A model generated the notes under the pieces. It saw nothing but the letters and a program-made list of their open reading frames with translations, was not told where the DNA came from and ran no database searches. A program made the translations under genes and the position numbers. Positions 515 through 20,631 of a stretch of 20,631 bases of DNA are shown here, one piece after another. The stretch covers positions 1 through 20,631 of IMG/VR virus record IMGVR_UViG_3300010160_002442, one strand, 5' to 3'. Position 1 is the stretch's first letter, and every line of letters begins with the position of its first letter. The DNA comes from a virus.

Positions 515-1120
515 TTATTTGTGCCCAAAAAGCAAGCCTGCTGCAATCAGCAGTATGGTCTGTGATTCAGCCGGATCTGCCACAACTGCTCGCCACCCCA
601 CAGATATTTGACCTATATAGGTGCCGGCTTCGGGCGGAACACTGACTCTACACATAAACTCAACGCCGTGTTCTTTATACACAAATCCCATATAACTCTG
701 CGGACGAAGGTAAGGACTGCACGGTATCTTGCCGGACATGAGACTGATAACATCGTTGTTGTTTTCGTAGTTTTTAGTCAACAATCCCACATCAGTACCA
801 TCATTGATCTTGTCACGCCCACTGCTTCTGGTGGTAAAGTATACCAGTTTACGGGTGTTCAACAAGGTGTTGACATCATAAATGGCCACTAATTCAGCAG
901 TAGAGTTCTTTAGGATAAAACTAGCAGTTGATTCGTAGTTGCCGTTCATCTTGGGCAAGGCCTGCTGTGCTCGGTAAGATGACATAAACGCATCCTTCTC
1001 TGTGTACAAAAACCAACCAGCGGCCGACAAGGTGCATAGTAAAATTACAGAGAAAAGCCTGAGTGGGCTGTCGCCTACCCAGGTCAGAAGACTAAGAATA
1101 AAATTCTTAATTGATTCCAT
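515..1120 (-). CDS. Membrane-anchored periplasmic protein, unknown
   Basis: The protein is 201 aa if translation starts at MESIKNFILSLL. An upstream in-frame ATG at 1144 would add 8 residues inside the preceding gene; the later start has GGAG about 10 nt upstream and gives a 14-nt overlap with the symporter stop. One transmembrane helix (about residues 21-40) is followed by roughly 160 residues that should lie in the periplasm, with a pair of cysteines (CSPYL and FMCRV) that could form a disulphide. The last 15 residues are hydrophobic (ILLIAAGLLFG) and may be a second membrane segment. I do not recognise the family. Its place directly behind a solute-binding protein and a symporter suggests an accessory subunit or sensor for that transport system, which is inference. 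Confidence 0.7.
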   Translation of the reverse strand: MESIKNFILSLLTWVGDSPLRLFSVILLCTLSAAGWFLYTEKDAFMSSYRAQQALPKMNGNYESTASFILKNSTAELVAIYDVNTLLNTRKLVYFTTRSSGRDKINDGTDVGLLTKNYENNNDVISLMSGKIPCSPYLRPQSYMGFVYKEHGVEFMCRVSVPPEAGTYIGQISVGWRAVVADPAESQTILLIAAGLLFGHK

Positions 1121-2375
1121 CTTTGGGCTCCAAGTCACACACATACGCAGTGACTGCTACGTTGCCGTGCACATGGCTTGCGGTTCGGATCATGTCCATG
1201 AGTGGATCAACTGCAATTAGCAGAATCAGTACAGCTTCGCTTGGCAATCTAAGCAGGTCACACACCACTGCTACTGTTGCCACTGTGAGTATACCAGTGG
1301 TTCCTGCACTGGCAAGTCCGGCTAAGATACTACCAAACAGCACTACCAGCAGTCCGGTCACACCCAGGTCAGTATTGTAAATGTTGGCAATAAACACTGT
1401 GGCAATGGCATAATACATGATGCTGCCTATTCTGTTCACAGTAAAGCTTAGTGGCACCATTAACTCAACACCGGCTCGGTTGAACTTTAATCGCTGTAAT
1501 CCTTCTTGCGCATACGGTATGCTGGCTAGTGAACTTCTTGATGTGGCAGCTACTATCAGTGTTTCTTTTGTAGCATTGATCACTTCCATAATAGTGGTCT
1601 TTGATCGCATCCAAATCACCACGGTTGCCACCACTATCAACACTGTGCCTGCGAGTGCCTGTTGGTAGATAAATTCAAACATGGTCAAGAATATACCTAC
1701 CCCGACCTTGCTGACTTGACTACTGATCATTGCTAGCAGTGCTATTGGCAAGAAGTAGTTTAGGAATTTGAATATGCTGATACTGGCTTCTTGAATGCTT
1801 TTCAGCACATCTACCAACATCTGTTGCCCGGCTGTTTTGATGTTACCAAGAGCAATACCAAATATCAAACAAAACACCACTACCTTGAGACTTTCGCCCA
1901 TGTTCAGGCTCTTGAATATGTTGTCCGGGATAAACTTATCAGCAATGTGTCCGGCGTCAACTGCGGCCTTGGGCATTGGTTCCTTGAGCGTGATGTTCAA
2001 GTCTATGCCACTGTCTTTGTTGTTGATCAATGCACCTAACTGAGTTTTCTTCTGCGGGGTCATTTCGGTACCGGTTGCCAGTACCGCTGCCATACCGATA
2101 GCAGATGCTATAAACATGCTGATCAGGAATCCAGTGATGATTTTGTGAATCATCGACATGCTGCCTTCTTTTTGCAGCAGAGTGATCACACCAACCAAGA
2201 TAGTGGCCAGCAGGAACGGCAGCACCACTACCTTTAGCAAGCTGATGTAGATGCTGCCAATACTTTCAAAGGTCAAGCTAAAGTGCGGATAATAAACTCC
2301 GGCCACCACACCCAGTAAGATTGAAGCTAATATGGTCCAAGGACTAACTAATACACTTTTTATTCTTATTTTCAT
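1107..2375 (-). CDS. DAACS-family dicarboxylate/amino acid:cation symporter
   Basis: This is a 422-aa polytopic inner-membrane protein of the DctA/GltP/Glt(Ph) family, which couples Na+ or H+ to uptake of acidic amino acids or C4-dicarboxylates. Seen directly: KVVVLPFLLATILVGVITL (about 48-66), a serine-rich hairpin-1 motif AATSRSSLASIP (276-287), the transmembrane-7 region VPLSFTVNRIGS (307-318), and the last helix with D390, D394, R397 and H401 in DPLMDMIRTASHVHGN. Two deviations stand out. The usual N-M-D-G-T cation motif is replaced by N-R-I-G-S, and the Asn expected at 401 is His. R397, which binds the side-chain carboxylate in acidic-substrate members, is kept. The gene lies 9 nt after a periplasmic binding-protein gene, an unusual partner for a secondary symporter. 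Length is normal for the family. Confidence 0.88.
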   Translation of the reverse strand: MKIRIKSVLVSPWTILASILLGVVAGVYYPHFSLTFESIGSIYISLLKVVVLPFLLATILVGVITLLQKEGSMSMIHKIITGFLISMFIASAIGMAAVLATGTEMTPQKKTQLGALINNKDSGIDLNITLKEPMPKAAVDAGHIADKFIPDNIFKSLNMGESLKVVVFCLIFGIALGNIKTAGQQMLVDVLKSIQEASISIFKFLNYFLPIALLAMISSQVSKVGVGIFLTMFEFIYQQALAGTVLIVVATVVIWMRSKTTIMEVINATKETLIVAATSRSSLASIPYAQEGLQRLKFNRAGVELMVPLSFTVNRIGSIMYYAIATVFIANIYNTDLGVTGLLVVLFGSILAGLASAGTTGILTVATVAVVCDLLRLPSEAVLILLIAVDPLMDMIRTASHVHGNVAVTAYVCDLEPKDGIN

Positions 2376-2384
2376 ATTGTTTCC

Positions 2385-3197
2385 TTATTTCTTGGATTCG
2401 GCTTTGTAGCGATCCATCAACTTCTTTGTATCAATGTTGCTGAACTCATTGGTGATGATGTAGTCTACAACAGATAACAATTGTGAGGAATTATATGGTA
2501 CAGCAACAGCAATGTTGTCCACAGAGTCGGATATGGTGACTGTTTTTGTGCTGAGAGTAGCATCGGGCTTTTCAAAGCTGATCTTCTTGATCTCAAACTC
2601 ATCACGGTAACCGGCAGCTATTCTGCCACTCATGACATCGTTGATTATCTTGTCCCAGCTATCTTCGGGCACGTATATGGCACGTGGAAAGTTGGCCCGT
2701 GCAAAGGTATCATAACTGCTGTTGCGAATGAAGGCCACGCGGCCACTGATGTTTCGCAGCACCTCGTAGGTTTCGCGATTCTTGCTGTTTTGACTTAACC
2801 ATATGCGGTTAACAATCATTGCCTGCTTGAGTTTAATGTAGGGCACACTAAATCTAACAGCCAACAGTCTGGGCCCGGTAATTGACAGCTTGCTGACAGC
2901 AAGGTCAGCACCGCCTGTTTTGACCTGTTCTACTACTTCGGAAAAGCTTTCTGCATCTCTACGGAACTGTACCGGAACACCCAGTACCTCGCCAATACGA
3001 CGGGCAAGCTCAACGTCGATGCCACTGATCTTGTCTCCCTCGCCACTGAAGAATGGCGGGGAGTCTTTCTTGTTCATGGCAACAACTAAAACATTCCGCT
3101 TTTTAATTGCAGCAATGTCAACTGGTCCCACAGTTGACGGTTGAGCATAAACAACAGCTGAACACAGCAGGAGAATCAGAGCAAGTATTTTTTTCAT
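2385..3197 (-). CDS. Periplasmic amino-acid-type solute-binding protein
   Basis: The protein is 270 aa with a clear Sec signal peptide (MKKILALILLLCSAVVYA, cleavage about residue 18). The mature part matches the SBP_bac_3 fold of polar amino-acid binding proteins: 'ISGIDVELARRIGEVLGV', then 'QVKTGGADLAVSKLSIT' and 'RLLAVRFSVPYIKL', which correspond to the family's G-x-D-hydrophobic, G-x-x-D and F-S-x-P-Y signatures. It would capture a small solute in the periplasm. ABC transporter components, its usual partners, are absent, and the next gene is a DAACS symporter, so it may hand substrate to that protein. No Shine-Dalgarno is visible; instead a hairpin abuts the start codon. Confidence 0.88.
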   Translation of the reverse strand: MKKILALILLLCSAVVYAQPSTVGPVDIAAIKKRNVLVVAMNKKDSPPFFSGEGDKISGIDVELARRIGEVLGVPVQFRRDAESFSEVVEQVKTGGADLAVSKLSITGPRLLAVRFSVPYIKLKQAMIVNRIWLSQNSKNRETYEVLRNISGRVAFIRNSSYDTFARANFPRAIYVPEDSWDKIINDVMSGRIAAGYRDEFEIKKISFEKPDATLSTKTVTISDSVDNIAVAVPYNSSQLLSVVDYIITNEFSNIDTKKLMDRYKAESKK

Positions 3198-4771: not shown

Positions 4772-5088
4772 TACTGATCCTTAAAATGTTGTTTAATAGC
4801 CCGCCCCGATTCAACGCAGGCCATGTCCCAAGTGTGTCCCTGAGACTGCAGGCTGACTTCATCTGTGATTGGACAAGGTGTTGCAACTGCAACCCTTGCA
4901 CATTCCCGAATAATAAGTTCGGCGAACCGCTCATACTCCCAAGAGTCAACTAGTTTTGACATGCCAGATTGTACAGCAAGTTCTCTAATTCGTTCGTTCA
5001 TATCTTTTCGTCCTTTATGTACAACAGTGGCAGAATCCTGAATAGCATCAACTAGTATCTTGTGTTCGTCTGGTGTAAGTTCAATCAT
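4771..5088 (-). CDS. FAELIxxEC-family protein with N-terminal extension (copy 2)
   Basis: The protein is 105 aa from the ATG that overlaps the upstream stop (ATGA). Residues 1-29 (MIELTPDEHKILVDAIQDSA...) are an extra domain not present in the paralogues. From M30 the sequence is MNERIRELAVQ, then RFAELIIRECARV and a C-terminal IKQHFKDQ. An internal start at M30 is possible, since AAAGGA lies about 9 nt before it, so both a long and a short product may be made. The C-terminal FGVEE of the relatives is lost. Confidence 0.72.
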   Translation of the reverse strand: MIELTPDEHKILVDAIQDSATVVHKGRKDMNERIRELAVQSGMSKLVDSWEYERFAELIIRECARVAVATPCPITDEVSLQSQGHTWDMACVESGRAIKQHFKDQ

Positions 5089-10818: not shown

Positions 10819-10892
10819 TGGTCTCGGTAGCAGGAATCGAACCTACGCTCCAACGTCCCAAACGTCGAGTGATACCATTTCACCATACCGAG
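10819..10892 (-). tRNA. tRNA-Pro(TGG)
   Basis: Full cloverleaf with acceptor CTCGGTA/TACCGAG, A73 and encoded CCA. The anticodon loop TTTGGGA gives TGG. The last tRNA of the operon, ending 15 nt before the glycosyltransferase start. Confidence 0.95.
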
Positions 10893-10898
10893 ATAATG

Positions 10899-10973
10899 TG
10901 GTGCCCCTTGTCTGAATCGAACAGACGCTCTATCGCTTACAAGGCGATTGCAGTACCACTATGCTAAAAGGGC
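10899..10973 (-). tRNA. tRNA-Thr(TGT)
   Basis: Acceptor GCCCTTT/AAGGGGC, anticodon loop CTTGTAA, T-arm GTCTG-TTCGATT-CAGAC, A73 and encoded CCA. Separated from tRNA-Pro by 6 nt. Confidence 0.95.
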
Positions 10974-10997
10974 TTAGATGTTTATTTACTTGAGTCA

Positions 10998-11072
10998 TGG
11001 TGCCGCCAACAGGAATCGAACCTATATCTAACGCTTAGGACGCGCCTGTTCTATCCATTGAACTATGGAGGC
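10998..11072 (-). tRNA. tRNA-Arg(CCT)
   Basis: Acceptor GCCTCCA/TGGCGGC with one G.U-type pair, anticodon loop GTCCTAA (CCT), normal T-loop TTCGATT, A73 and encoded CCA. Reads AGG codons, rare in many proteobacteria. Confidence 0.93.
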
Positions 11073-11112
11073 AAATAAGGATAGGCTTTTCACCTAATGG
11101 ATGCATGATGTT

Positions 11113-11150
11113 ACGACCGAGTATTGGGTCGTTTGCGGTGCGACCGCAAA
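11113..11150 (-). other. Tandem hairpins between tRNA-Tyr and tRNA-Arg(CCT)
   Basis: The 82-nt spacer between two tRNAs holds two adjacent perfect stems: TTTGCGGT/ACCGCAAA (8 bp, 3-nt loop, 11132-11150) and ACGACC/GGTCGT (6 bp, 8-nt loop, 11113-11132). No U-run follows. They could separate the tRNAs for processing. Confidence 0.45.
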
Positions 11151-11154
11151 ATTT

Positions 11155-11239
11155 TGGTGGACAGGGTAGGATTCGAACCTACGTAGCCAGAGGCGGGAGA
11201 TTTACAGTCTCCTGGTTTTAACCACTCACCCACCTGTCC
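11155..11239 (-). tRNA. tRNA-Tyr(GTA)
   Basis: A class II tRNA with a long variable arm. Acceptor GGACAGG/CCTGTCC, anticodon stem GGAGA/TCTCC around CTGTAAA, T-loop TTCGAAT, A73 and encoded CCA. Confidence 0.95.
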
Positions 11240-11249
11240 ATTGTACATA

Positions 11250-11353
11250 CCATATAGAAGTACACTAGTGAAATCGCACTACCTCAGTTTCACGCTGAGT
11301 TACCAGTAGTTACGGAAGCATTGTCCTCCTGCGAATAATGTACTTCTATATGG
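11250..11353 (-). ncRNA. Long-stem structured RNA E1
   Basis: The two ends are a perfect 15-bp inverted repeat (CCATATAGAAGTACA at both 5' ends of the duplex) extended by a U.G and two A-U pairs. The interior of about 70 nt has its own stems, CTCAG/CTGAG with a 7-nt loop inside ACTAC/GTAGT, and GGAGG/CTTCC. The first bases (CCA) coincide with the 3' end of the upstream tRNA-like element, and tRNA-Tyr starts 10 nt downstream. No coding capacity or U-run is seen. The 5' arm shares GAAGYACATTAT with E2. Role unknown; the geometry resembles RNase III processing stalks of pre-rRNA. Confidence 0.6.
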
Positions 11354-11426
11354 AATCCATTGTGAGCAGGGTTCGAACCTGCATAACGCCCGAGAGCTTA
11401 TCTTAACCAATTAGATGATCACGGAT
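11351..11426 (-). tRNA. Degenerate tRNA-like element
   Basis: This 76-nt segment has a normal D-arm (ATCT-AATTGGTTA-AGAT), a perfect T-arm (GCAGG-TTCGAAC-CCTGC) and ends in CCA, but the anticodon arm is reduced to about 17 nt without a proper 5-bp stem, and the 3' acceptor strand has a 3-nt insertion (TCAC-AAT-GGAT against ATCC-GTGA). No anticodon can be assigned. It is either a decaying tRNA or a tRNA mimic. Its CCA overlaps the first bases of E1. Confidence 0.5.
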
Positions 11427-11474
11427 TCATCGGGTCATGACTCCCAATTCTGGGGAAGGGTAATTAGTCCTTCT

Positions 11475-11563
11475 TACCATATTGAAACACACTATAATTC
11501 TCAGTTTAACGGCACAGAGTTAACTTGGCATGAGAAACAGATATAATGTGCTTCAATATGGTA
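11475..11563 (-). ncRNA. Long-stem structured RNA E2
   Basis: The 5' arm TACCATATTGAAGCACATTA pairs with the 3' arm over 22 bp with just two imperfect pairs, both G.U in the minus-strand transcript (they would be A.C in the opposite strand). Inside, TTCTCA pairs with TGAGAA, and AGTTAAC with GTTAAACT (one bulged A) closing an 8-nt loop. Exactly 89 nt long, the same as E3. Role unknown. Confidence 0.65.
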
Positions 11564-11631
11564 GCCAGTGTTGCTGGCTTGGGAATCCCGGTCCTCGCTG
11601 GAATGGTTACCAACCTACATACCACCCTCCA
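11564..11631 (-). other. Structured spacer between E3 and E2
   Basis: These 68 nt occupy the place where the neighbouring gaps hold a tRNA, but no canonical tRNA can be drawn. Short hairpins are visible: AGCCAG/CTGGCT (5-nt loop), GGG/CCC, and TGG/CCA within TGGA/TCCA. The following E2 arm supplies ACCA, as it would after a tRNA. It may be a highly diverged tRNA or an independent RNA. Confidence 0.35.
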
Positions 11632-11720
11632 TACCATAGAAAAACACACTCGGGGATGTGCTGAAAGTACCCCTTGATGATCCTAAATCTTTATGTTTTA
11701 GAATGTGTTTGTCTATGGTA
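11632..11720 (-). ncRNA. Long-stem structured RNA E3
   Basis: The ends TACCATAGACAAACACATTC and its partner form about 19 bp with one mismatch and one U.G pair. Inside are CTAAA/TTTAG and GGGG/CCCC stems. The first bases ACCA of the 5' arm are also the discriminator and CCA of tRNA-Lys, so forming the stem and maturing the tRNA 3' end would compete or be ordered. 89 nt, like E2. Confidence 0.6.
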
Positions 11721-11789
11721 GGTCTGGAAGGTAACGCTCCTTCTTAGTCGGATTAAAAGTCCGATACTTTACTTTTAAGTTACAAACCC
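11716..11789 (-). tRNA. tRNA-Lys(TTT) with non-canonical elbow
   Basis: A complete 74-nt cloverleaf: acceptor GGGTTTG/CAGACCT, D-arm ACTT/AAGT, anticodon stem TCGGA/TCCGA around CTTTTAA, T-stem GAAGG/CCTTC, A73 and CCA. The D-loop (AAAAGTA) lacks the GG pair and the T-loop is AGCGTTA instead of TTCGANN, so the usual D-loop/T-loop contacts are altered. Standard tRNA models may score it low. Confidence 0.8.
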
Positions 11790-11797
11790 AGTGTGTA

Positions 11798-11913
11798 AGA
11801 TCATATTGAAACTCACTCGCATCTGCTTTTGGAGCCGCGTGTTCTTTCCCCGTTTTTCCAAGACTAGTACTTGGGGGGATGTGCCCATTTACACCAGAGC
11901 TTCAATATGACCT
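11798..11913 (-). ncRNA. Long-stem structured RNA E4
   Basis: The ends pair over 17 bp (AGGTCATATTGAAGCTC with its partner), with two G.U pairs in the minus transcript. The interior has CCAAG/CTTGG (7-nt loop) stacked inside CCCC/GGGG. It is the first element after the promoter and boxA leader at 11935-12002. No reading frame of note and no U-run. Confidence 0.6.
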
Positions 11914-11934
11914 CACAGTCATGTTTTTCATCGA

Positions 11935-11965
11935 CTTGTTAAAGAGCGCGTTAATCTCTTAACGC
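11935..11965 (-). promoter_or_regulatory. rRNA-type antitermination leader (hairpin + boxA)
   Basis: Directly after the promoter, GCGTTA/TAACGC forms a 6-bp hairpin (11948-11965, boxB-like position), followed at once by GCTCTTTAACAAG (11935-11947). The core GCTCTTTAACA is the boxA of proteobacterial rRNA operons, bound as RNA by NusB/NusE. In rrn leaders the order is also boxB hairpin then boxA. This suggests the untranslated tRNA/RNA operon is protected from Rho termination. Confidence 0.75.
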
Positions 11966-11973
11966 ATACAAGC

Positions 11974-12002
11974 ATTATACGGCAAGTTGAATTACTTGTC
12001 AA
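11974..12002 (-). promoter_or_regulatory. Perfect consensus sigma70 promoter of the E4-to-tRNA-Pro operon
   Basis: TTGACA (11997-12002), 17-nt spacer, TATAAT (11974-11979). It reads into the boxA leader, E4, tRNA-Lys, E3, E2, E1 and tRNAs Tyr, Arg, Thr and Pro, and possibly on into the glycosyltransferase genes. Confidence 0.9.
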
Positions 12003-12015
12003 CCGTGCCTGACAT

Positions 12016-12039
12016 GAAAAAGCGCGGACCAACCGCGCT
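12016..12039 (-). terminator. Intrinsic terminator
   Basis: On the minus strand AGCGCGG/CCGCGCT forms a 7-bp GC-rich stem with a 5-nt loop followed by TTTTT. It ends the transcript of the 86-aa gene just before the next promoter. Confidence 0.85.
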
Positions 12040-17344: not shown

Positions 17345-17423
17345 TGGTAGGAGGTCTAGGAATTGAACCTAGTTCTACTGCTCTTCAGGCAGTCGCTGAA
17401 ATCACCAGACTAGCTCACCCCCC
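17345..17423 (-). tRNA. tRNA-Phe(GAA)
   Basis: Acceptor GGGGGGT/ACCTCCT (two G.U), anticodon stem ACTGC/GCAGT around CTGAAGA, T-arm CTAGG-TTCAATT-CCTAG, A73 and CCA. The D-loop is unusually long. The first 22 nt are also the end of the endonuclease gene at 17402-18013. Confidence 0.9.
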
Positions 17424-18013
17424 AAAAACTTTTCGTATTGTTCTTTTTCAACAATGACAATATTTTTGTCTGGATATGTTTTAAGAACAATATCCATCTT
17501 TTCTCTATCTCTGCCCCACCAATGTCCTTTAACTTCTAAGAATACATTGTATGCTGGTAGAAAGAAATCTGGAGTATAACAACGGACTTTATCATCCATT
17601 ACATACTCTAATACATCTCTGTTAGTTTTAAGTTTTTTCCACTCTATTCCTAACTCCTCAAACTTTAGGGCAACATTTCTTTCCCAGGTGCCTTGAACTT
17701 TTTGCCCTGCAACTTCATACCATTTAGCTCTACCACCTTTGTTATTGATAGATAACTTTTGACTGATCTTACGTTTAGTCTCTTCGGTATGTTTTTTTCC
17801 CTTGAATGTTCCAGGCAACCCTATGTTCCATGGAATCTGAACACCTGTTAGTCCTTTGTTCCAAGCAGGCTTTCCTATTTGATGTCCTCCAAAGGATATT
17901 CCAGGATTTGTATGCGTTCTGTAGATATGCGAAGTAGTTGCCTGCCTGCTGTTAAATTCACGCTGGCATTCTTTGCACATCCATTTGTCGTTTAGTTGGT
18001 GATAGTTTTTCAT
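17402..18013 (-). CDS. Homing endonuclease: zinc finger + NUMOD3 + PD-(D/E)XK-like nuclease
   Basis: A 203-aa protein from ATG 18013 (MKNYHQLNDKWMCKECQREF); the frame continues upstream to 18070 but the later start follows a perfect late-promoter box. Domains in order: a C2H2-like finger (CKEC ... HIYRTH, about 13-33), repeated NUMOD-type loops (KPAWNKGLTG, then GTFKGKKHTEETKRKIS, about 48-88), and a C-terminal nuclease with FEELGIEWKKLKTNRD, YTPDFFLP and VFLEVKGHWWG. The P-D-F ... E-V-K spacing fits PD-(D/E)XK or Vsr-like endonucleases. Free-standing mobile endonucleases of this build are common in T4-like phages. Its last 6 codons and stop are the first 22 nt of tRNA-Phe. Confidence 0.8.
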   Translation of the reverse strand: MKNYHQLNDKWMCKECQREFNSRQATTSHIYRTHTNPGISFGGHQIGKPAWNKGLTGVQIPWNIGLPGTFKGKKHTEETKRKISQKLSINNKGGRAKWYEVAGQKVQGTWERNVALKFEELGIEWKKLKTNRDVLEYVMDDKVRCYTPDFFLPAYNVFLEVKGHWWGRDREKMDIVLKTYPDKNIVIVEKEQYEKFLGGELVW

Positions 18014-18018
18014 ATACT

Positions 18019-18026
18019 TATTTATA
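18019..18026 (-). promoter_or_regulatory. T4-type late promoter box (TATAAATA)
   Basis: A perfect TATAAATA match, just 5 nt before the endonuclease ATG. Confidence 0.5.
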
Positions 18027-18072
18027 CAAAACACCGGCGCTATGACCACATCAGCTAAAGCAGCATACACTT

Positions 18073-18147
18073 ATGGTACCCGGTAAAGGTAACGATCCTC
18101 TGTCTAACGATTATCAGTCGTTTGCTCTACCTTTGAGCTAACCGGGT
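18073..18147 (-). tRNA. tRNA-Ile(GAT) with A54/U58 T-loop
   Basis: Acceptor ACCCGGT/ACCGGGT, D-arm GCTC/GAGC with a normal AAAGGTA loop, anticodon stem AACGA/TCGTT around CTGATAA, T-stem AGAGG/CCTTT, A73 and CCA (the CCA end maps at about 18076). The T-loop is ATCGTTA, so U54/A58 is swapped to A54/U58. Confidence 0.9.
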
Positions 18148-18159
18148 ATAAAACAGGGT

Positions 18160-18233
18160 TGGGGTGAAGTGGGGAATTGAACCCTCTCTAACTGTTTCAC
18201 AGACAGTTGTGCAACCACTACACTAACAACACC
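18160..18233 (-). tRNA. tRNA-His(GTG), irregular
   Basis: Anticodon stem ACTGT/ACAGT around CTGTGAA, D-arm GTGT/GCAC, and the histidine identity pair G-1:C73 with CCA. The acceptor GTGTTGT/ACTTCAC has two adjacent U.U mismatches and the T-stem is only 3-4 bp, so the molecule may be decaying or need repair of base pairing by modification. T-loop TTCAATT. Confidence 0.8.
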
Positions 18234-18243
18234 ATTGAAAAGT

Positions 18244-18318
18244 TGGCGGTCCCAAGGGGTAACGATCCCCTTCCTCATGCGTGACAGGCATGTATGCGTC
18301 CATGAACACTTTGAGACC
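18244..18318 (-). tRNA. tRNA-Asp(GTC) with A54/U58 T-loop
   Basis: Acceptor GGTCTCA/TGGGACC, anticodon stem CATGC/GCATG around CTGTCAC, T-stem AGGGG/CCCCT, G73 and CCA. The T-loop is ATCGTTA as in tRNA-Ile, and the D-loop is short but keeps GG. Confidence 0.9.
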
Positions 18319-18325
18319 TAAATTT

Positions 18326-18401
18326 TGGTAGGGGTTGATGGATTCGAACCACCGCATGTCGGAATCAAAATCCGATGCCTTACCAACTTGGCGAAACCCC
18401 T
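18326..18401 (-). tRNA. tRNA-Gln(TTG)
   Basis: Acceptor AGGGGTT/AACCCCT, anticodon stem TCGGA/TCCGA around TTTTGAT, T-arm GGTGG-TTCGAAT-CCATC, A73 and CCA. Confidence 0.94.
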
Positions 18402-18412
18402 GTATATATGTT

Positions 18413-18710
18413 TGGTGCTCCGAGCCGGAATCGAACCGGCATGCCGTTAAGCGAGAGATTTTCTTACCACTATAGTTTTCACTACCCTTTCGGTTTGGTG
18501 GTCTGGACTATACCTTCATCATAGTATTACTACCTTAGATGCCCGCCGTCTAGTCTCTACACGTTCAAAGTAATTTCTCACTAAGCTTCGCTCGGTATTA
18601 GCATTTTACAGCCTTCACCGAATTTGACGGGTTCTGCTCCTGAGATTTCCCTCAAGGCACTCAAATTTTACTCTCAAGTCTCTTGTGTTTACCTATTTCA
18701 CCATCGGAGC
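18413..18710 (-). tRNA. tRNA-Leu(TAA) split by a group I intron
   Basis: Exon 1 is 18676-18710 (starts GCTCCGA, ends in the anticodon loop at CTT) and exon 2 is 18413-18462 (starts AAAATCTCT). Joined, they give anticodon stem AGAGA/TCTCT around CTTAAAA, i.e. UAA, acceptor GCTCCGA/TCGGAGC, a class II variable arm, T-loop TTCGATT, A73 and CCA. The break lies between U34 and A35, the same site as the intron of cyanobacterial and plastid tRNA-Leu(UAA). Confidence 0.92.
18463..18675 (-). other. Group I self-splicing intron, 213 nt, without ORF
   Basis: The intron follows U34 of the exon and ends in G (the expected omega-G). Core elements seen in order: GTCAAATTC and GCTAATACCGAGC in the P3/P4-J region, GAGACTAGACGG (P7/P3 strand) and GAAGGTATAGTCC (the P7 3' strand). 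These match the tRNA-Leu(UAA) intron family (subgroup IC3 by recollection). No room for an endonuclease gene; an HNH gene lies directly upstream of exon 1 instead. Confidence 0.9.
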
Positions 18711-19295
18711 AATTAATTTCTTCATCCTACTGTAGTTCCCGCCCTTTGCAGCTAAACCTACTTCTATCAACGATTGTCGTATGTTACGACACTTAGCGTA
18801 TGCTGTCAACAGCATTTGATCACTAACTTTTACTTTTCCTGAATTGATATTTCTACCTCTCCAAGTAGAAGTTAGTGCGTGACAATTACAACACAATAAC
18901 TTAAGATTATCCTTAACGTTATTGCAATTATTACCGTCGACGTGTTCTAATTCTAGAGGTATACTAACTGACTTCCATTCAGTTAATCCGCAATCCTCGC
19001 ATCTATGTCCTCTTTCTTGGAGCAAAGCTGCTTTGTGATTTCCTGTACCATTATACTCAAATAATGTTCTGGAATAATTTCCCTTTGCCCAATTCATTGC
19101 ATCTTTAGTTTCCTGCGGTAATAACTTGTATACTTCAGACATTGGTGATCTTTTACCAGTATCATAAACTAATTTAGTTTTATCTGAATTAATTTTTTTC
19201 AGCACATCACACCCTGCAGGTCTTTTACTACAACAATTCTTACCATTCTTCAATGTAAAATTTGATATCTTACCACATCCATACTCACATAACAT
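18693..19295 (-). CDS. HNH homing endonuclease overlapping tRNA-Leu exon 1
   Basis: A 200-aa protein. The N-terminus has a cysteine cluster (CEYGCG ... CCSKRPAGC) that may bind zinc. The catalytic core runs GHRCEDCGLTEW (97-108), LELEHVDGNN (114-123), NLKLLCCNCHAL (130-141): CxxC plus CxxC zinc knuckles with His118, Asn130 and His139 as the H-N-H residues. A C-terminal helix-turn-helix-like part follows. AGGAG precedes the ATG and a GATAAATA late box lies 20 nt upstream. Its last five codons plus stop (APMVK) are encoded by the first 18 nt of the intron-bearing tRNA-Leu, so it is free-standing but sits against the intron's host gene. Confidence 0.87.
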   Translation of the reverse strand: MLCEYGCGKISNFTLKNGKNCCSKRPAGCDVLKKINSDKTKLVYDTGKRSPMSEVYKLLPQETKDAMNWAKGNYSRTLFEYNGTGNHKAALLQERGHRCEDCGLTEWKSVSIPLELEHVDGNNCNNVKDNLKLLCCNCHALTSTWRGRNINSGKVKVSDQMLLTAYAKCRNIRQSLIEVGLAAKGGNYSRMKKLIAPMVK

Positions 19296-19369: not shown

Positions 19370-19371
19370 TT

Positions 19372-19402
19372 TTAAAGAGCTGTTGCTGAGTTACCAACAA
19401 CA
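19372..19402 (-). promoter_or_regulatory. rRNA-type antitermination leader (hairpin + boxA)
   Basis: TGTTG/CAACA closes a hairpin (19381-19402) that is followed at once by GCTCTTTAA (19372-19380), then AAAC. This is the same order as at 11935-11965, and GCTCTTTAA is 9 nt of the rrn boxA core. It should act on the transcript carrying the intron-bearing tRNA-Leu and tRNAs Gln to Phe. Confidence 0.65.
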
Positions 19403-19409
19403 TGACTCT

Positions 19410-19438
19410 AGTATAGTGTACTTGGATTTAATTGTCAA
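19410..19438 (-). promoter_or_regulatory. Consensus sigma70 promoter
   Basis: TTGACA (19433-19438), 17-nt spacer, TATACT (19410-19415). It lies just below tRNA-Ser(TGA) and reads into the second boxA leader. Confidence 0.88.
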
Positions 19439-20014: not shown

Positions 20015-20134
20015 GTACAGAGAAACACGCTATCCTGGCTCCGTGCTGCGAAGTGTGCAGCATAATCAACACACAGGTTCTGTCCGCATCGGATGTTTGG
20101 ACTTCAGATTAGATCATAGCATGTTTCTCTGTAC
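20015..20134 (-). ncRNA. Long-stem structured RNA E5
   Basis: The ends (5' arm GTACAGAGAAACATGCTAT) pair over 19 bp with one U.G in the minus transcript. The 80-nt interior holds TGCTGC/GCAGCA with a 7-nt loop and GTCC/GGAC. It lies between E6 and tRNA-Glu. No coding potential seen. Confidence 0.62.
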
Positions 20135-20159
20135 ACACTTTTTTTGTAAAAAATGTGTA
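20132..20159 (-). other. A/U-rich hairpin between E6 and E5
   Basis: TACACA/TGTGTA continues into U6/A6, giving an almost complete 12-bp stem with one bulge. It joins directly onto the arms of E5 and E6. Confidence 0.4.
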
Positions 20160-20195
20160 TAGTAAAGCACACTGACCACCAATGTACTTTACTAT
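20159..20195 (-). ncRNA. Long-stem RNA hairpin E6
   Basis: A continuous hairpin of about 16 bp (5' arm ATAGTAAAGTACATTG) with a 5-nt loop and two U.G pairs. It shares the AAGTACATT motif with the 5' arms of E1 and E2 but has no internal domain, so it is a minimal member of the family. Confidence 0.55.
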
Positions 20196-20239
20196 TAGGA
20201 TCTGACTCTCTGCGTTCCCGCCACAGATTTTATGCCCCT

Positions 20240-20315
20240 AACACGCCCGTTTGCTCCATTGTTTAAAGTGCAGAGCGAGGGCCTCGTTCCCTCTTATCAC
20301 ACTTTGCCGGGTGTT
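20240..20315 (-). ncRNA. Structured RNA E8 in the leader of the tRNA-Glu operon
   Basis: AACACCCG pairs with CGGGCGTGTT (one bulge) around AAAGTGTG/TGCACTTT, which encloses GAGGG/CCCTC. It lies just below the promoter at 20334-20362. TGCACTTTAAACAA within it resembles a degenerate boxA. Confidence 0.4.
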
Positions 20316-20333
20316 TTAATTCCCTAGCGCCTT

Positions 20334-20362
20334 ATTATACAGTGCTTTCAATTTGTTGTCAA
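20334..20362 (-). promoter_or_regulatory. Perfect consensus sigma70 promoter of the tRNA-Glu-to-Ser operon
   Basis: TTGACA (20357-20362), 17-nt spacer, TATAAT (20334-20339). It reads into E8, E6, E5 and tRNAs Glu, Trp, fMet, Asn, Cys and Ser. Confidence 0.9.
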
Positions 20363-20384
20363 CTCTCCTGTATTCCTGTTTCAC

Positions 20385-20422
20385 TTAAAGACAAACCCTG
20401 GGTCTTTCGAGCCAGGGTCTGT
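20385..20422 (-). terminator. Probable intrinsic terminator
   Basis: ACAGACCCTGG pairs with CCAGGGTTTGT (11 bp, one G.U) around a loop containing CGAAAG, followed by CTTTAAG. The U-run is short, so efficiency is uncertain. It would end the transcript from the promoter at 20582-20610. Confidence 0.5.
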
Positions 20423-20462
20423 GTATTTGAATCTTACGACTCAGTCTACTCAGACCCCCGGG

Positions 20463-20555
20463 TATCACTATTCTCGAATGCACGAATATATGATACCGAG
20501 CCCAGCCATGTGATGGCGACCGGGCACATCTGTTCGTGCTTGGATAAGAGTGATA
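20463..20555 (-). ncRNA. Long-stem structured RNA E7
   Basis: The ends pair as TATCACT/AGTGATA and GCACGAA/TTCGTGC with a partly paired stretch between. The interior stacks GCCC/GGGC over GCCAT/ATGGC. It starts about 20 nt after the predicted start site of its own promoter and is followed by a likely terminator, so a free RNA of about 190 nt is predicted. A 41-codon frame crosses it but lacks a ribosome-binding site. Confidence 0.5.
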
Positions 20556-20581
20556 GTGTGAAGTTTTTCATAACAGTGTCA

Positions 20582-20610
20582 ATTATATGCTTTTATTTAT
20601 TCCTTGTCAA
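20582..20610 (-). promoter_or_regulatory. Perfect consensus sigma70 promoter of the E7 RNA
   Basis: TTGACA (20605-20610), 17-nt spacer, TATAAT (20582-20587). Drives the E7 transcript. Confidence 0.88.
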
Positions 20611-20631
20611 CCTGAGTTTTATCAAAAGTCA

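Follow-up and report, generated by a model that had tools for sequence, protein, structure and literature searches.

How phages express 10 to 30 untranslated tRNAs without losing the transcript to Rho is a question that is seldom asked. It is posed by a linear 20.6-kb viral fragment (hereafter the window, meaning the whole stretch of DNA that was analysed) in which ARAGORN found 24 tRNA genes, every one of them on the minus strand, and in which a promoter, a hairpin and a boxA follow one another at two places. The answer that we propose is a concrete and testable one: phages may copy the leader of host rRNA operons. If this is true, many uncultured phages join the Nus-complex regulon, the leader can be used to annotate where tRNA transcription begins in phage genomes, and these phages are predicted to depend on nusB and suhB of the host. 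In the open-access literature that we searched, nothing on boxA leaders of phage tRNA operons was found; the boxA literature that we did find concerns rRNA, suhB (PMC5725501), and lambdoid or other phages that use N.

Two leaders in the window

A sequence-only reading had claimed a promoter-hairpin-boxA layout at the second of these places (copy 2). All of its elements were found, on the minus strand (19438-19370), and the leader is confirmed as real. Its parts and those of copy 1 are as follows.

19410..19438, minus: sigma70 promoter of copy 2, TTGACA-17-TATACT (TTGACA at 19438-19433, 17-nt spacer, TATACT at 19415-19410)
19381..19402, minus: boxB-like hairpin of copy 2, UGUUGUUGG-UAAC-UCAGCAACA, directly 5' of boxA (RNA folding)
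19370..19380, minus: boxA of copy 2, GCTCTTTAAAA (exact GYTCTTTAANA match)
11974..12002, minus: sigma70 promoter of copy 1, TTGACA-17-TATAAT (promoter pattern search)
11948..11965, minus: hairpin of copy 1, GCGUUAA-GAGA-UUAACGC (RNA folding)
11937..11947, minus: boxA of copy 1, GCTCTTTAACA (exact GYTCTTTAANA match)

The copy 2 hairpin had been described as TGTTG/CAACA. The hairpin exists but its stem is longer than that, with 9 bp by RNA folding (including two G-U pairs; -9.0 kcal/mol, z -2.35, equalled by 5 of 200 shuffles), and GCTCTTTAA at 19380-19372 abuts it with a gap of 0. As the same reading had stated, the two copies differ in this element: the hairpin of copy 1 (12002-11937) is unrelated to that of copy 2. 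Both copies carry an exact GYTCTTTAANA, which is the gammaproteobacterial boxA consensus (PMC5725501).

The promoter pattern TTGACA-16/18-TATANT occurs six times in the window, compared to 0.03 in shuffles. Exactly two occurrences of GCTCTTTAA are present, each right behind one of these promoters. One-mismatch versions of GCTCTTTAA were not enriched across the window (8 found, 5.1 expected), and the case made here is therefore based on position and on relatives rather than on window counts. A third promoter (20362-20334) was considered as the start of a further leader copy and rejected, as its boxA-like GCACTTTAA (20271-20263) is off-consensus and base-paired in the predicted fold. The region of this promoter is strongly conserved in relatives.

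Conservation of the leaders and change behind them

Four relatives (L015, L036, L059 and L074) have copy 2, in which the promoter hexamers, the arms of the hairpin and boxA are all identical; copy 1 is present in these four and in L064 (99.96% identity across 12 kb). Of the three GYTCTTTAANA sites in a 167-kb relative, two belong to the two tRNA leaders. Relatives that keep the promoter and the tRNAs and lack boxA, which by the sequence-only reading would have spoken against it, were not found among the close relatives. In many unrelated phages a promoter does precede tRNAs with no boxA between them, mostly where there are <5 tRNAs. A near-identity search of a phage collection with the window and four tRNA loci returned tRNA-length matches only, or none. 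Phage protein searches for taxonomic placement gave no match for two proteins and a weak one (24-27% identity) for another, and a terminase search in four relatives found none.

The following features stand behind the leaders or between them.

18693..19295, minus: HNH endonuclease ORF, the first gene behind copy 2, missing here in relatives
18413..18710, minus: tRNA-Leu(UAA) with a group I intron inside it (RF00028, Rfam match at 18482-18685, 56.7 bits; sequence reading); the tRNA-Leu of relatives at this place is unsplit
18074..18401, minus: tRNA-Gln, Asp, His and Ile behind copy 2 (ARAGORN)
12021..12039, minus: intrinsic-terminator-like hairpin just upstream of copy 1, conserved in relatives
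10819..11789, minus: tRNAs behind copy 1, an RF00005 match at 11719-11789 and then Tyr, Arg, Thr and Pro

In the relatives with copy 2, tRNA-Leu begins ~31 nt past boxA. Behind copy 2 of the window there is no immediate tRNA array, and the HNH ORF and the intron-split tRNA-Leu come first. Homology to the relatives stops a few bases past the copy 2 boxA and restarts in the 3' half of tRNA-Leu, and the HNH ORF and the group I intron fill this gap. A break right behind boxA indicates that the leader was retained as a unit while the content downstream changed. The terminator-like hairpin at 12021..12039 is the probable end of the unit started at copy 2.

The intron interrupts tRNA-Leu(UAA) in the anticodon loop. 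Copies of the split region that are 97% identical occur in L003, L055, L063 and L118. The tRNA-Leu(UAA) of L036 is unsplit and shares its acceptor end with the split gene of the window.

In three more distant phages (L003, L079 and L116) boxA and the downstream RNA are kept. Their promoter spacers and hairpin sequences are different, with pairing of the hairpin retained. This is direct evidence that the arrangement and boxA are conserved and the hairpin sequence is not. In 24 of 36 leaders in a tRNA context a stem ended no more than 7 nt from boxA (shuffle mean 5.4, maximum 10), and the 24 arm pairs were all mutually different; 12 of these 24 scored hairpins had GNRA tetraloops (GAAA, GAGA, GCAA, GTAA). 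In a sequence-based alignment of 30 leaders a five-pair stem was formed in 91% of cells and four of the five pairs showed double (compensatory) changes, although some of these 30 were picked for a visible hairpin and 24 of 36 is the fairer figure. When the partner was slid by 1-3 columns as a control, pairing fell to 8-61%, and RNAalifold returned the same helix unprompted. Selection on the arrangement over the hairpin sequence, the main claim made of this locus, is thus supported by the relatives, by the replacement of hairpins with pairing retained and by the compensatory stem changes.

Association with tRNA arrays across viral contigs

To search viral contigs we used the pattern TTGACA-N16-18-TATAAT-N10-40-GCTCTTTAA, with the same pattern carrying a reversed boxA as the control. 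At least 119 stretches matched, compared to 18 with the reversed boxA. Among the matches listed, a same-strand tRNA lay within 700 nt in 28 of 65 boxA clusters (leaders after clustering that had enough downstream sequence) and in none of 8 controls (Fisher p = 0.02), and none of the 65 had a tRNA on the opposite strand within that distance. The same pattern has different neighbors in bacterial genomes: among the matches listed, a 16S start lay downstream in 23 and a tRNA within 700 nt in 0 (of the remainder, 52 end too early to judge and 42 have neither), while among those listed from viral contigs a tRNA was present in 55 and 16S within 700 nt in 0 of 109.

A search that made no use of boxA, in which a promoter had to be followed by a tRNA T-loop 98-128 nt later, yielded 67 non-redundant promoter-to-tRNA leaders. 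Among the matches listed, an exact boxA was present in 16 of the 67 and a one-mismatch boxA in 7, compared to 0.012 and 0.42 in shuffled leaders. All 16 exact cases were GTTCTTTAA; the set contains no GCTCTTTAA leader, probably because those belong to the matches of the GCTCTTTAA search. The most enriched words, TTAAAAA, TTTAAAA, TCTTTAA, GTTCTTT and TTCTTTA, are pieces of boxA and its tail and occurred in 16-21 leaders each (shuffle maximum 10). Counting exact and one-mismatch cases, boxA preceded 19 of the 26 arrays that have five tRNAs or more and 4 of the 41 shorter ones (Mann-Whitney p = 3e-7), which leaves 7 of the 26 long arrays with a promoter and without boxA. No boxA leader was seen ahead of a tRNA array in 20 named phages, many of them tRNA-rich, including T5, KVP40, Aeh1, PaP1, Felix O1, CbK, XacN1, PhiW-14 and BcepSauron.

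Leaders of this kind were also seen away from tRNA arrays. In T5 (AY543070) a pre-early hairpin-boxA lies near 4978, flanked by the HNH gene T5.010 on one side and T5.009 or T5.008 on the other, with the hairpin GGCGG..CCGCC and a terminal-repeat copy at 116509; the T5 record carries no annotation of it. Its presence makes T5 a laboratory model for boxA leaders, but not for their use with tRNAs. Eos, a T5 relative, has hairpin-boxA leaders at 24976 and 25480, and promoter-boxA leaders are also present in pVp-1, in CBB and in the T5-like UTK0009. In a T7-like Dickeya phage, the distance from an early-type promoter to such a leader is ~160 nt. Non-coding boxA leaders reading CGCTCTTTAACAATxTG occur at the early end of the T7-like Dickeya phage DchS19 (L446, 1801-1831) and in Yersinia phage YeP4 (L448, 1201-1226), where the leader adjoins a repressor gene.

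A probable rrn-type leader and its rivals

The closest known likeness is to the rrn P2 leader with its boxB-boxA(-boxC). Both have a sigma70 promoter, a hairpin followed by boxA, GYTCTTTAANA with roughly 25-40 nt between it and the -10 box, and stable untranslated RNA behind. The E. coli rrnB P2 leader runs promoter, hairpin GCCGCT..AGCGGC, TGCTCTTTAACAATTTA, which is the order of the phage leaders. In contrast to rrn P2, the phage leader drives tRNA arrays and not rRNA, and its hairpin is shorter and often has a GNRA loop. An Rfam scan found no rRNA genes in the window; with rRNA absent downstream, the feature is a variant of the rrn-type leader and not an rrn operon.

Lambda nut sites have the layout boxA-boxB. 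Those of lambdoid phages and of the mEp imm I group resemble the phage tRNA leaders in that boxA and a hairpin are borne by a phage and host Nus factors are employed (predicted in our case), but in both copies and in the relatives the order is reversed, with the hairpin before boxA, and the leaders are not located at lambdoid early promoters. HK022 put, likewise a phage leader RNA, might be compared as giving a processive polymerase without a phage protein; put acts via its own structure, without boxA. The boxA of suhB and other cellular regulators (Baniulyte et al. 2017, PMC5725501) has an equal consensus and also lies outside rRNA operons, but it stands upstream of protein genes and promotes termination at suhB, whereas the targets here are tRNA arrays. 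For recruitment of the rrn complex in E. coli, boxA is both necessary and sufficient, and what boxB does there is puzzling (PMC10250234), which agrees with the free hairpin sequence of the phage leaders.

Judging from sequence, we probably have here a boxB-boxA leader of the rrn type, which would load host NusB-S10-NusA-NusG-SuhB on polymerase over phage tRNA arrays. As boxA emerges from RNA polymerase it would be bound by host NusB-S10 (NusE). NusA, NusG and SuhB would then join to form the complex that is normally built on rRNA operons, and the polymerase would be fast and Rho-resistant across long, largely untranslated tRNA transcripts. The complex may also keep the 5' end near the polymerase and so aid precursor folding and processing. 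If the leader works as in rrn, no phage N protein would be needed. The same leader in unrelated phages suggests that the host rRNA transcription machinery is borrowed for long tRNA runs, and its association with array length is consistent with a task of sustaining transcription across long stretches of untranslated RNA. On the other hand, the 20 named phages and the long arrays that lack boxA count against this reading, as does copy 2 of the window, which precedes a translated ORF where Rho protection would be less needed. We see an even balance for and against a broader proposal, in which hairpin-boxA leaders would be a general phage cis element far beyond the lambdoids (tRNA-array, T5-like pre-early, T7-like early and jumbo phages) that recruits the host rRNA transcription complex without N protein, tRNA arrays being run as imitation rRNA operons.

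It is possible, though rather unlikely, that the same leader and Nus complex were selected for co-transcriptional maturation. NusB-S10-SuhB would keep the 5' end attached to the polymerase, long tRNA precursors and intervening structured RNAs would fold and be cut correctly, and Rho resistance would be a side effect. At rRNA the Nus complex may indeed act more in RNA maturation than in antitermination (PMC4807359), and several relatives have a stem-bracketed structured RNA between boxA and the first tRNA. In many phages, however, the first tRNA lies 14-20 nt past boxA with no other structured RNA between, and boxA blocks Rho termination in reporters (PMC4807359); the association with array length fits both roles. 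Leaders on early or pre-early transcripts without tRNAs (T5, T5-like and T7-like phages), which are expressed during host takeover, could speak for a decoy, in which strong phage promoters make so much boxA RNA that NusB-S10 is drawn off host rRNA operons and ribosome synthesis stops. We think this improbable, as boxA is a cis element of the 5' end and its presence follows the length of the downstream tRNA array, and a decoy needs neither.

There is little likelihood, too, of a lambda-type nut site whose hairpin is bound by an N-like phage protein. The GNRA tetraloops in half of the scored hairpins would suit it, but the order of hairpin and boxA is that of rrn, no N-like gene was found among the ten largest ORFs of the window (a genome fragment), and the loops of copy 2 (UAAC) and copy 1 (GAGA) give no evidence of a common hairpin ligand. 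Finally, a good promoter might by accident be followed by GCTCTTTAA, and the lack of window-wide enrichment of its one-mismatch forms speaks for such an accident. We regard this as very improbable: it is already refuted by the conservation in relatives and by the boxA-free search, and the collection-wide tests and the covariation speak against it as well.

Further observations were made on the minus strand of the window. Between boxA and tRNA-Tyr (~11260-11930) lie two or three RNAs, each bracketed by a stem (CATATTGAAGC...GTTTCAATATG), also present in L003, L116, L083 and L031. The first of them (GTGTAAATGGGCACATCCCC...GAACACGCGGCTC..AAGCAGATGCGAGTG) is kept in distant phages and its closing stem has compensatory changes. 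The RNAs that adjoin the leaders matched no convincing Rfam family even at a relaxed threshold. At 20100-20631, ~500 bases without ORFs are ~95% identical in relatives and contain two consensus promoters and strong hairpins; this is likely to be one or more structured RNAs of no named type ahead of the tRNA-Glu array. A NUMOD3 motif is present in a phage endonuclease I-like gene (17402-18070), possibly a homing nuclease, which lies inside the tRNA array and whose end overlaps tRNA-Phe. At 1107-3197 a sodium:dicarboxylate symporter (PF00375) adjoins a family 3 solute-binding protein (PF00497), a transport pair that is unusual for a phage.
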